64,000 bases of DNA from Bacteroidota bacterium (GTDB lineage: Bacteria; Bacteroidota; Bacteroidia; Chitinophagales; Chitinophagaceae): NCBI GenBank assembly GCA_005798905.1, contig SYIK01000005.1:124001-188000 (forward strand), read 5' to 3'. Below the pieces are notes generated by a model. That model made no database searches and was not told where the DNA came from. It saw only the letters and a program-made list of their open reading frames with translations. Below are positions 33,968 through 40,549 of the stretch, piece by piece; the first letter of the stretch is position 1; every line of letters begins with the position of its first letter. The position numbers and the translations under genes were made by a program.

Positions 33968-34411
33968 TTATTCTTTTTTTGAGGATAATACAATCCCTTC
34001 TTTTGCTGTTTCCTTTACCAAATCAGCGATAGTCCTGTTTTCAAACATGGAAATTAATTTTGGTTTTATATGCTTGTATTGTGAATGCAAAGGGCATGGC
34101 CTCTTTTCCGAACAATCACTTAATCCTAAAATGCAAGTATTTAACCACTCGCATCCTCCAATTGCATTGAGAATGCTGCTAATTGGAAACATCTTAGCTT
34201 CATCTGTTATATAAAAGCCTCCATTAGGCCCCCTGACTGATTGAACAATACCGACTCCCGTAGTAAGTTGTTGAAGAATTTTTGCTGTATAGGCTTGAGG
34301 AGACCCTATTGCTTTTGCAATTTCTTTTAAACTCATTTTCTTTTTCTCAGTACTTTTTTGTGCAATTAACATTACTGCCCTCAAAGCATATTCTGCAGAT
34401 TTAGATAACAT
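33968..34411 (-). CDS. Rrf2-family Fe-S transcriptional regulator (NsrR/IscR-like)
   Basis: MLSKSAEYALRAVMLIAQKS, GIVQSVRGPNGGF, cysteines in CEWLNTCILGLSDCSEKRPCPLH. Confidence 0.92.
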   Translation of the reverse strand: MLSKSAEYALRAVMLIAQKSTEKKKMSLKEIAKAIGSPQAYTAKILQQLTTGVGIVQSVRGPNGGFYITDEAKMFPISSILNAIGGCEWLNTCILGLSDCSEKRPCPLHSQYKHIKPKLISMFENRTIADLVKETAKEGIVLSSKKE

Positions 34412-34416
34412 ATACT

Positions 34417-34436
34417 ACTTATATTTTTATACAAGT
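34417..34436. promoter_or_regulatory. Imperfect inverted repeat ACTTATATTTTTATACAAGT directly upstream of the Rrf2 start; possible operator
   Basis: ACTT...AAGT arms with AT-rich core in the queD-rrf2 gap. Confidence 0.3.
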
Positions 34437-34876
34437 TAAACCAAAGAATTGGAATACCACTCTGCATATGAATCGTGTGTTTCGAAAATTTTTAGGTTTT
34501 CTAATTTAATATACTCAGGTAGCGTAGCTATCAGTTTATTTTTTATAAAAATTAAAATATTTTCTGCAGTTGGTTCTATTTCCCAAATTATCAGGTTTTC
34601 TATTGTTTGTATTTCTGAATGTTCGGAAAGAAAACGAGATGATAAAATTATTTTATGATCAAGCAATTCTGTTATAGAAGCGTAAATCAGCTTCTTTAAT
34701 TCTTTGAAGTCTACCTCAAAGCCTGGATAAAGAAGAAAGTCATCGACAGTTACATTTCGACCTGTTACTGTAACATGTAATTCATAGGAATGCCCATGAA
34801 TGTTTCTGCAGTCCCCTGGATAATCAGCAATAGCATGAGCCATTTCAAATCGAACAACTTTAGTTATATGAATCAT
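34436..34876 (-). CDS. queD: 6-carboxytetrahydropterin synthase / 6-pyruvoyl-tetrahydropterin synthase family (QueD-like)
   Basis: RFEMAHAIADYPGDCRNIHGHSYELHVTVTG (CxxxHGH Zn/catalytic motif), ENLKIFETHDSYAEWY. Confidence 0.9.
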   Translation of the reverse strand: MIHITKVVRFEMAHAIADYPGDCRNIHGHSYELHVTVTGRNVTVDDFLLYPGFEVDFKELKKLIYASITELLDHKIILSSRFLSEHSEIQTIENLIIWEIEPTAENILIFIKNKLIATLPEYIKLENLKIFETHDSYAEWYSNSLV

Positions 34877-34903
34877 TTTTTTCTGTTAATTTGCAAAAAA
34901 AGA

Positions 34904-34934
34904 CAAATATATCCACAATCTATTACCTTCACAA
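34904..34934 (-). promoter_or_regulatory. Predicted promoter for queD-rrf2: TTG-N20-TATATTTG
   Basis: Reverse-strand -7 TATATTTG (34904-34911) and -33 TTG (34932-34934), overlapping the 5' UTR of the divergent nod-like gene. Confidence 0.45.
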
Positions 34935-34950
34935 AAAACAATTCCACACT

Positions 34951-37233
34951 ATGTCTACACACAATGTACTTAGCTATCTTCTTAATCCAAAAAAATGGTG
35001 GCTTCCTCTGCTAATAATATTTTTGATTAGCTTATTTGGTGTATCTATGATAGGAATTCATACATATACAGAGGCTCCACCCATTGCAACATTTGTAGAC
35101 AATAAAAACAAAATTGTATTTTCTAAAGAAGATATTTTAAAAGGGCAAGCAACATTCCAACAATCTGCATTAATGGAGTATGGCAGTTTCTTTGGCGATG
35201 GTGCCTATCGTGGCCCAGATTTTACAGCCGAAGCATTACACCAAGTTGCATTATATATGAATTCTTTTTATGAACAAGGAATAGTAACGAGCGATAGTGA
35301 GAAAGATTTGAAACAAAAAGGTGTTGCAGAAAAAGTAAAAAATGAACTCAAAAGAAATCTTTATAACAAAAAAAACAATCAGGTTTTATTAAGTGAGGGT
35401 CAGTCCTATGCAGCAAATTCATTGATACACTACTACAATACTAAGTTTACACAAAGCGACTCCGCTTCTTCTTACCAATCAATTAGATACATCAAGGATA
35501 GTGCTCAAATTAGAGCACTATCCGCTTTTTTTTTCTGGGGAGCTTGGGTTTGCGGCGTGGAAAGACCAGGAGAAAGCTACAGCTATACGCATAACTGGCC
35601 CTTTGATCCGCAAGCTGGTAATACCCCAACTTCTGCTATTATTTTATGGAGTATTTTGGGAATGTTTGGTTTAATATTAGGGCTCGGACTCGTGCTTTAC
35701 TATCACGGTAAATTAGAAAAGCTGAATAATGAAACTTACACAAGTAATGCACAGTCCTTTATGACAACCGAAGAGGTCTCCAATTTTACACCCTCTGCTA
35801 TACAAAAAGCAACATTTAAATATTTTTTTACTGCCATTTGGCTTTTTGCACTTCAAGTATTGTCAGGCATTTTGACGGTACATGATTTTGTTGGAATTGT
35901 TAATTGGTTTGGATATGACCTATCGGAATTATTACCCATTACCATCACTAGAAGCTGGCATGTGCAACTTTCCATTATCTGGATTTCGGCTTGTTGGATT
36001 GGAGGCTCTTTTTTCATGATGTCCTTAGTTTCTCCGAAACAGTCAGCAGCTCAATTAAAATTAGTAAACACTATCTATTGGCTAACCGTTTTATTGGTGG
36101 CAGGCTCCTTAGCTGGAATTCTATTAGGCCCCCTTGGCTATTTAGGTAAATATTGGTATTGGGCCGGGCATCAAGGTTGGGAATTTGTTGAGCCTGGTAA
36201 AATTTGGCAGATTTTGCTTGGCTTTATTTTCATTTTATGGGCGATTACTCTATACAGAGGAGTGAAACCAATTTTGAAACTTAACCAACCATGGGCTTTG
36301 CCTAACTGGCTTATCTATTCTACTTTTAGCATCATCCTATTACTTTCCTCGGGATTTGCTTTTACACCAACTACAAACTTTGTCATTGCCGATTTTTGGA
36401 GATGGATGGTAGTTCATATGTGGGCAGAAGCATTTTTTGAAGTCTTTACTACTGTGCTTATTGGATTCTTCATGGTGATGATGGGATTGGTAAATAAACA
36501 GGCGGCTATTCGAGTAATTTATTTGGCAACATTATTGTTTTTAGGATCTGGATTATTGGGTATTTCGCATAATTTTTATTGGAATGCAAAACCTGTTTTT
36601 ACCATGGCATTAGGAAGCGTCTTTTCTACCTTGCAGGTTGTTCCCTTAGTGTTGCTCACTTTGGAAGCTTGGAGATTCAGTAAATTACCTAAAGCATTGG
36701 AATCTGCAAATGAGCATGTAACTCCCAAAAGTAAATTTGGATTTAAAGAGGTTTTCCTTTTTTTAATTGCAGTCAATTTTTGGAATTTCTTTGGTGCGGG
36801 AGTGCTGGGCTTTATTATTAACCTCCCTATTGCAAACTATTTTGAACATGGCACTTATTTAACAGTTAACCATGGACATGCTGCATTGATGGGTGTATAC
36901 GGAAATCTTGCAATTGCAGCAGCTTTATTTTGTAGTCAACTACTAATCAAGAAAGCATGGTGGCATTCGCAAGTTGTCAAAATTGTATTTTGGTCTATTA
37001 ATTTAGGTTTATTGCTTATGATATTTCTTGACCTTTTCCCTGTCGGAGTATATCAATTTCAACAAACAGCTGAAAAGGGACTGTGGTATTCTAGAAGCAG
37101 CGCATTTACTGACAGTATTGAATTTCAATCTTTGACTTGGCTTAGAATAATTGGAGGTTCAATTTTTACCATTGGAGGAGTAGTTCTTCTTACTTGGTTT
37201 TTTACAAGTAGGGCCAACAAATTAAAAAACTAA
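34951..37233 (+). CDS. nod: Putative nitric oxide dismutase (Nod), qNOR/NorZ-family heme-copper oxidase with Nod-diagnostic substitutions
   Basis: qNOR architecture (degenerate N-terminal cytochrome-like domain plus about 12-14 TM NorB domain, NHGHAALMGVYGN heme ligands), but SHNFYW instead of xHHxYW, FSTLQVVPL instead of FSALEVVPL, LTVHDFVGIVNW and WLRIIGG in place of quinol-site residues. Confidence 0.82.
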   Translation: MSTHNVLSYLLNPKKWWLPLLIIFLISLFGVSMIGIHTYTEAPPIATFVDNKNKIVFSKEDILKGQATFQQSALMEYGSFFGDGAYRGPDFTAEALHQVALYMNSFYEQGIVTSDSEKDLKQKGVAEKVKNELKRNLYNKKNNQVLLSEGQSYAANSLIHYYNTKFTQSDSASSYQSIRYIKDSAQIRALSAFFFWGAWVCGVERPGESYSYTHNWPFDPQAGNTPTSAIILWSILGMFGLILGLGLVLYYHGKLEKLNNETYTSNAQSFMTTEEVSNFTPSAIQKATFKYFFTAIWLFALQVLSGILTVHDFVGIVNWFGYDLSELLPITITRSWHVQLSIIWISACWIGGSFFMMSLVSPKQSAAQLKLVNTIYWLTVLLVAGSLAGILLGPLGYLGKYWYWAGHQGWEFVEPGKIWQILLGFIFILWAITLYRGVKPILKLNQPWALPNWLIYSTFSIILLLSSGFAFTPTTNFVIADFWRWMVVHMWAEAFFEVFTTVLIGFFMVMMGLVNKQAAIRVIYLATLLFLGSGLLGISHNFYWNAKPVFTMALGSVFSTLQVVPLVLLTLEAWRFSKLPKALESANEHVTPKSKFGFKEVFLFLIAVNFWNFFGAGVLGFIINLPIANYFEHGTYLTVNHGHAALMGVYGNLAIAAALFCSQLLIKKAWWHSQVVKIVFWSINLGLLLMIFLDLFPVGVYQFQQTAEKGLWYSRSSAFTDSIEFQSLTWLRIIGGSIFTIGGVVLLTWFFTSRANKLKN

Positions 37234-39044: not shown

Positions 39045-39779
39045 ATGAAAAAATACACGTTTTTTAATTTTATTTTAGTTGCTTTTTGTTCGTTTATATT
39101 GCTTCAATCTTGTAAAGATGATAGCTACTTACTAACACCTGCACCTATTCCCGATCAATCATTTGCAGAAGAATTTGACACTGCAACTTCTGCTTATAGT
39201 AGAGGATGGAGATGGATAAACAGAAGCGATGTTATTGGACGTCGTAATTGGCAAAACCCAACTACAATTCCTTTTGCTCCTTATTCTGGTGTAACGGGTA
39301 ATGGTTACCTTTATGCAGACTATCAATCTACTGCATCTGGAGCTGGTGTTATTAGTAATTGGGCAGTGTCTCCTTCTTTGATTTTGCAAAATGGAGATAA
39401 AATTATTTTTTACACTCGTTCTCAATTAGACGGGAATACCGATTGGGTAAATCGTATGCAAGTAAGAATAAATAAATACAATACCCTTAATTGCGGTGAT
39501 GGTGTAGATCCTGGAGATTTTACAATACCTCTTTTGGATATAAACCCTTTCTATTATGAATTCTTATTGAATGTATTTAATAACCCTGCAAGTCCACAAT
39601 ATGCACAAGTGCGTCAAGCATATCCGCATGTTTGGACAAGATTTGAGGCAACGGTTCAAGGGTTAACAGAACCAACCCGTGGTCGTTTTGCATTCCGTTA
39701 TTTTGTAGAAGAAGCTGGAAACAACGGCAGAGCAAATGCAATTGCAATTGACCAAGTAGTTTATGCAGGTAAAAAATAA
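39045..39779 (+). CDS. Choice-of-anchor J domain lipoprotein
   Basis: Lipobox ILLQSCKDD; EEFDTATSAYSRGWRWINRSDVIGRRNWQ..., ISNWAVSPSLILQNGDKIIFYTRS. Confidence 0.82.
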   Translation: MKKYTFFNFILVAFCSFILLQSCKDDSYLLTPAPIPDQSFAEEFDTATSAYSRGWRWINRSDVIGRRNWQNPTTIPFAPYSGVTGNGYLYADYQSTASGAGVISNWAVSPSLILQNGDKIIFYTRSQLDGNTDWVNRMQVRINKYNTLNCGDGVDPGDFTIPLLDINPFYYEFLLNVFNNPASPQYAQVRQAYPHVWTRFEATVQGLTEPTRGRFAFRYFVEEAGNNGRANAIAIDQVVYAGKK

Positions 39780-39826
39780 TTGAGAACTGAAAAATTAAAA
39801 ATTTTTGTTTATAATAAAAAGGCCTT

Positions 39827-40549
39827 ATGAAAAATAAAACTTTACTTTCTTCGAGTTTTGTACTTTTTTTAACTTCTCTTTTTCTATTACAATCTTGTAA
39901 AGAAGAAAAATTAGCAGAAGCACCACAGCAGCCAGCAAGCTTATCTTACCACACAGAGTTCGATTCAATTGGTAAAGTAATTGCTGATGGTTGGAGAGCA
40001 GTAAACAAAAGTCAACCTGCAAGTGGAGATTCTTGGCAACAAGGATCTTATATTGCTGATAATATAAAAGGAGGACCATTTCGATCGGCAATACCTGCCC
40101 ATTCTTATGTTGCAAGTGCAAACGAATATGCACTTTGCCCTTACACTGTAGGACGTAATTTATCTTTTATTAATTGTTGGTTGCTAACACCAGCATTGTC
40201 TATGAAAAATGGAGATCGATTTTCTTTTTGGACAAGAACAAAAACTTCTGTTTCTTACCCCGATCGGATGCAAGTTTGGATGAACACAACAAATGACGGT
40301 ACAAATGTGGGAGAAAATCAAAATGAAACAGGCGATTTTACAAAATTAATTGTTGATATAAATCCTTCTCAATCTAGAACTGGCTATCCAACAGCTTGGA
40401 CAAAATATGAATTTGTAGTTTCTGGTTTACCTTATAGTGTACCTAAAAAATTGCGCATTGGATTCCGCTATTATGTTCAAGCTGGCGGTCCAAGTGGTGC
40501 AAATTCCGACGAAATTGGAATTGACGATTTTGAATTTATTAGCAATTAA
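39827..40549 (+). CDS. Choice-of-anchor J domain lipoprotein (tandem paralog)
   Basis: Lipobox FLLQSCKEE; HTEFDSIGKVIADGWRAVNKSQPASGDSWQQG, CWLLTPALSMKNGDRFSFWTRT. Confidence 0.82.
   Translation: MKNKTLLSSSFVLFLTSLFLLQSCKEEKLAEAPQQPASLSYHTEFDSIGKVIADGWRAVNKSQPASGDSWQQGSYIADNIKGGPFRSAIPAHSYVASANEYALCPYTVGRNLSFINCWLLTPALSMKNGDRFSFWTRTKTSVSYPDRMQVWMNTTNDGTNVGENQNETGDFTKLIVDINPSQSRTGYPTAWTKYEFVVSGLPYSVPKKLRIGFRYYVQAGGPSGANSDEIGIDDFEFISN

Follow-up and report, generated by a model that had tools for sequence, protein, structure and literature searches.

A putative nitric oxide dismutase gene and its predicted Rrf2-type regulator in a streamlined Bacteroidota genome

The 64,000-nucleotide stretch of Bacteroidota DNA analysed here (the window) carries a gene, nod, whose product is very likely a member of the putative nitric oxide dismutase (Nod) family, as judged by its residues and its place in a phylogenetic tree. 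Our preferred reading, to which as a whole we give a probability of about one half, is that nod encodes a putative Nod that would dismutate NO, be induced by NO and serve to scavenge NO of external origin. According to this proposal, two NO molecules would be bound at the heme b3/FeB site and, a working quinol electron input being absent, the pair would be rearranged to N2 and O2. Expression of nod would be induced by NO via an Rrf2-type Fe-S repressor, external NO would be removed without electron cost, and any O2 formed could supply a heme-copper oxidase. The genome to which the window belongs is 99.7% complete, and the searches detected neither a nitrite nor a nitrate reductase in it; Nod would therefore act there outside any denitrification chain.

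Putative Nod proteins have been defined by an Asn in place of one FeB His, a Gln in place of a nearby Glu and a lost quinol site, with Muricauda given as an example from the Bacteroidota (PMC3413370, Ettwig et al.). Furthermore, nod has been reported in Sediminibacterium and Algoriphagus (PMC10264387), and a Bacteroidota nod clade is described from lake MAGs, for an enzyme that has never been isolated, whose activity has not been demonstrated for any purified representative and on which the evidence conflicts (PMC13386854). The gene described here is a new member of this family, already known in Bacteroidota including Sediminibacterium; what the present analysis adds is its stand-alone genome context and a predicted regulator and operator. 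The production of O2 by Nod has been unsettled since it was proposed (PMC3413370). The predicted regulation, a context devoid of nitrite reduction and growable relatives, about 70% identical, in named strains of Hydrotalea flava (described as aerobic; PMC4901231), Flavihumibacter and Daejeonella make the dismutation question experimentally approachable.

The nod product and its catalytic residues

The gene and the positions that define its assignment are as follows:

34951 to 37233, plus strand: nod, intact open reading frame for a putative nitric oxide dismutase of 760 amino acids with a qNOR fold
35881 to 35895, plus strand: H311 to G315, aligned with the quinol site; His328 retained, Glu332 replaced by Gly
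36415 to 36429, plus strand: H489 to E493, aligned with His508 and Glu512, the retained FeB ligands in HMWAE (alignment and codons)
36568 to 36573, plus strand: H540-N541, aligned with His559-His560 of Geobacillus qNOR; an FeB ligand His replaced by Asn (alignment and codons)
36634 to 36636, plus strand: Q562, aligned with Glu581 of Geobacillus qNOR; the catalytic Glu replaced by Gln (alignment and codon CAG)

The 760-residue product matches the Pfam families COX1 and NorB cytochrome-c-like domain and, in the profile search, no NCBIfam model. A sequence search matched it to the qNOR structure 3AYF from Geobacillus with E = 2.3e-148, at 36% identity. CXXCH is absent, so that the fused N-terminal cytochrome-c-like domain lacks a heme c motif; the cNOR layout, a short NorB without an N-terminal domain and a separate NorC, is not what is seen in this fusion protein. 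A longer, TTG-started frame is also present from 34891, and the translation start is nevertheless likely to be the ATG at 34951, because homologues begin at the equivalent position and the extension would overlap the operator position described below. The gene is under purifying selection (dN about 0.21, dS saturated). A structure predicted from a 42-sequence alignment (pLDDT 83; the single-sequence fold, at pLDDT 42, was unusable) superimposes on 3AYF with a TM-score of 0.91 and thus supports a qNOR fold, the chemistry lying outside the reach of such a model.

Residue numbers were transferred by aligning nod to 3AYF, the alignment being gap-free around N541 and Q562. The first-pass annotation had placed His-Asn at the FeB ligand pair, Gln at the Glu581 position and an HxWxE motif at 36415, and all three are exact at the level of the codons: H540 is CAT (36568-36570), N541 is AAT (36571-36573), H489 is CAT (36415-36417) and E493 is GAA (36427-36429). 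The canonical qNOR combination of a His559-His560 pair with Glu581 is thereby lost, while five of the six heme and FeB histidines are retained (H337, H489, H540, H641 and H643). That annotation had also described the quinol site as degenerate, which holds for Glu332 and Asp746, both replaced by Gly, and does not hold for His328, so that one of the three canonical quinol contacts remains; Phe336 is replaced by Trp, the residue being Phe in most relatives. Because His328 is retained in its clade, Nod of this type may still bind quinol. In the NC10 and aquifer Nod clusters, Thr is common at this position (PMC10286720).

The Nod branch and its distribution

Among the more than 40 Bacteroidota rows of Nod-type homologues, a few of which are duplicates, identity to the nod product ranges from 55 to 73%, and every one of them carries the HN pair and the Gln. 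The 29 qNORs compared are 33-38% identical and invariably carry HH and Glu, which leaves a clear identity gap between the two types. In a scan of public genomes, 40 named loci were recovered at 63-72% identity, from Bacteroidota only, including Hydrotalea flava, three Flavihumibacter strains, Ferruginibacter, Daejeonella and Cyclobacteriaceae. In a maximum-likelihood tree, the 41 Nod rows are all separated from the qNORs by a branch with an SH-aLRT support of 100; the tree was built with a quick method, and long branches are flagged in its qNOR part in addition to a long Nod stem. The Sphingobacteriia MAG loci L037 and L038 fall within the Nod branch. The Nod type is rare, being found in 5 of the 398 genomes of an even sample of the phylum, the genome of the window included. 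No relatives were found in scans of viral contigs and phages; plasmids yielded only matches of less than 60% identity, and the ten that were listed are 34-37% identical.

The residues and the separate branch bear out the initial assignment of nod to the putative Nod proteins rather than to qNOR. The case that had been named as speaking against it, in which the substitutions are an isolated oddity among canonical qNORs, is excluded by the invariance of the residues and by the tree. Together with purifying selection and the intact frame, these observations also rule out a sequencing error or an ordinary qNOR in decay, and we regard this whole group of explanations as extremely improbable.

A far more serious competitor, which we nonetheless rate below dismutation, holds that the Nod clade consists of divergent NO reductases that still produce N2O, drawing electrons from another donor or through a route involving His328, with the Asn and Gln tuning the site. 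The qNOR fold and the retained His328 are in line with it, it has been suggested that reductase activity persists in some NOD-like proteins (PMC8115048), and the cytochrome c and heme-copper pair found near nod in about 15 relatives (see below) could donate electrons. It is opposed by the replacement of the equivalents of Glu581, Glu332 and Asp746, all three, in a pattern that is invariant over a deep branch, and by the coexistence of both enzyme types in one organism. On a contig of Bacteroidetes GWA2_40_15, a canonical qNOR (L023:1057-3294, minus strand) and a Nod (L023:9995-12292, plus strand) lie 6.7 kb apart and each retains its own residue type, which provides a natural internal control. 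A search of 41 genome entries that carry nod found no qNOR; second matches to PF22085 in these entries are cytochrome-c-like or represent fragments of a split nod.

Predicted regulation and genes linked to nod

Upstream of nod, the window contains the following features:

33968 to 34411, minus strand: Rrf2-family regulator with a CX6CX5C motif, candidate Fe-S/NO sensor controlling nod
34436 to 34876, minus strand: gene of the QueD/6-pyruvoyl tetrahydropterin synthase family, between the Rrf2 gene and nod
34893 to 34922, no strand assigned: decayed copy of a 30-bp palindrome (weight matrix), candidate operator of nod

Of the 35 named loci for which upstream sequence is available, 26 have an Rrf2 homologue no more than four genes away from nod, and NsrR-type regulators occur near nod in other lineages (PMC13386854). 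The QueD-like gene recurs near nod in about a dozen relatives, in several of them in the same position; it has no obvious link to NO and is probably a bystander. Elsewhere in the window, at 39045-40549 on the plus strand, two adjoining choice-of-anchor J domain proteins are encoded, followed by a C92-family amidase.

A dyad search upstream of nod yielded a best exact dyad common to 10 of 32 sequences, compared with a maximum of 4 after shuffling. When scored with a weight matrix, 33 of 35 loci show a 30-bp palindrome at positions -46 to -73, roughly 55 bp ahead of nod; some of the loci are near-duplicates, and 17 of the sites served as seeds and were scored leave-one-out. The copy in the window scores 5.1 against a shuffle maximum of -1.2 and is decayed, but it occupies the expected location. 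One other site in the whole window scores as high, and the operator claim therefore rests on position more than on score. In locus L015 the palindrome is also present ahead of the Rrf2 gene, and in L051 ahead of the cytochrome c gene. Searching the whole genome of the window for operators gave noise, a control pattern producing more hits and the sole near-perfect site lying inside a coding gene. The Rrf2 protein would bind the palindrome and sense NO.

Regulation by a likely NO/Fe-S sensor would suit any NO-related role, and it is thus also compatible with a further alternative, in which Nod neither dismutates NO nor reduces it usefully and instead binds or senses NO, oxidizes it, or acts as a very slow O2/NO reductase. 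No purified member of the family has been characterised (PMC13386854), which leaves room for such a function; the full set of hemes and the retention of most substrate-site residues suggest catalysis, and we consider this alternative quite unlikely.

In about 15 relatives, a cytochrome c gene and a gene for a heme-copper subunit (weakly cNOR-like) are arranged divergently from nod. These and a second linked gene are represented by:

L018:8160-9578, minus strand: heme-copper subunit, with the cytochrome c at L018:9529-9930, minus strand
L087:7504-8853, minus strand: counterpart of this subunit in the genome of the window, with its companion at L087:8837-9322, minus strand
L013:15363-17195, L016:15593-17401 and L050:7339-9159, all plus strand: conserved protein of about 606 amino acids

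Relatives of the L018 pair occur in L013, L014, L016, L017, L019, L027, L028, L037, L038, L048, L049 and L051. The counterpart in the genome of the window, a COX1 protein of 449 amino acids, is 46% identical and lies away from nod. An ordinary cNOR was considered for this subunit and rejected, as the alignment shows altered ligands: the first FeB His is replaced by Tyr or Asn (Asn in the genome of the window) and a heme b His by Met. Of 40 nod genomes, 13 have copies that are at least 60% identical, as against none of 30 controls. The subunit and its cytochrome c may represent a NOR family of the non-canonical kind, for which nNOR is a published example, or serve as an electron partner. The protein of about 606 amino acids matches nothing in Pfam and nothing meaningful in NCBIfam, and its gene is also preceded by the palindrome in several loci. 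It occurs in 31 of 40 nod genomes as against 7 of 30 without nod (Fisher p about 9e-6, a value that is too small because the genomes are related), and is absent from the genome of the window.

Genome context and comparison with known systems

The genome of the window comprises 1.86 Mb on 19 contigs and contains a single nod; most family relatives examined measure 3-8 Mb, which marks a streamlined lineage. It probably belongs to the Chitinophagaceae, judging by genomes of its family whose loci coincide with named ones (L002 with L019 and L052 with L017, among others) and by named members of the Chitinophagaceae in the Nod branch. Pathway absences in this genome rest on family searches, which detected no qNOR, canonical cNOR or bd oxidase, no NirK above the cut-off and no NirS. 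A weak NirK-like match was rejected, as it is a CueO-like multicopper oxidase. NarG and NapA were likewise not detected, the molybdopterin-oxidoreductase matches being confined to one frame of 1164 amino acids, which we guess to be an alternative-complex-III subunit. Besides nod, two COX1 proteins are encoded, the 449-residue subunit and a heme-copper oxidase of 602 amino acids that lies in a cluster resembling terminal-oxidase genes in order and size. Among related genomes, NirK accompanies nod in 10 of 41, compared with 3 of 30 (not significant).

Because a terminal oxidase is present and no enzyme generating NO from nitrite was found, this organism would be a scavenger of external NO rather than a denitrifier, which favours scavenging over an intra-aerobic lifestyle. 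The intra-aerobic capacity raised in the first-pass annotation is not supported by these family searches, and NO detoxification is the likelier half of its inference. A broader generalisation, which we put forward tentatively and consider rather unlikely to hold in full, is that Nod in aerobic Bacteroidota would provide an electron-free, O2-yielding detoxification of NO under an Rrf2/Fe-S repressor, retained in streamlined genomes that do not make NO and, in many relatives, acting beside the linked heme-copper enzyme with its altered metal site.

By published description, nod resembles the Bacteroidota Nod of Muricauda ruestringensis, Sediminibacterium, Algoriphagus and Cecembia (PMC3413370, PMC10264387, PMC13386854) in phylum, qNOR fold and the His560 to Asn and Glu581 to Gln replacements; it differs in its setting, a genome of 1.86 Mb in which neither nitrate reductase nor nitrite reductase was detected. 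With the Nod of Ca. Methylomirabilis oxyfera (DAMO_2434/2437) and strain HdN1, likewise compared by description, it shares the defining FeB-site and Glu581 substitutions (PMC3413370), whereas it retains His328 and occurs in another genome context, in which neither a methane nor a nitrite pathway is seen near nod. With qNOR (3AYF, 6QQ5) it has in common the fold, the length and a fused cytochrome-c-like domain without heme c, and it is set apart by the replacement of His560, Glu581, Glu332 and Asp746.
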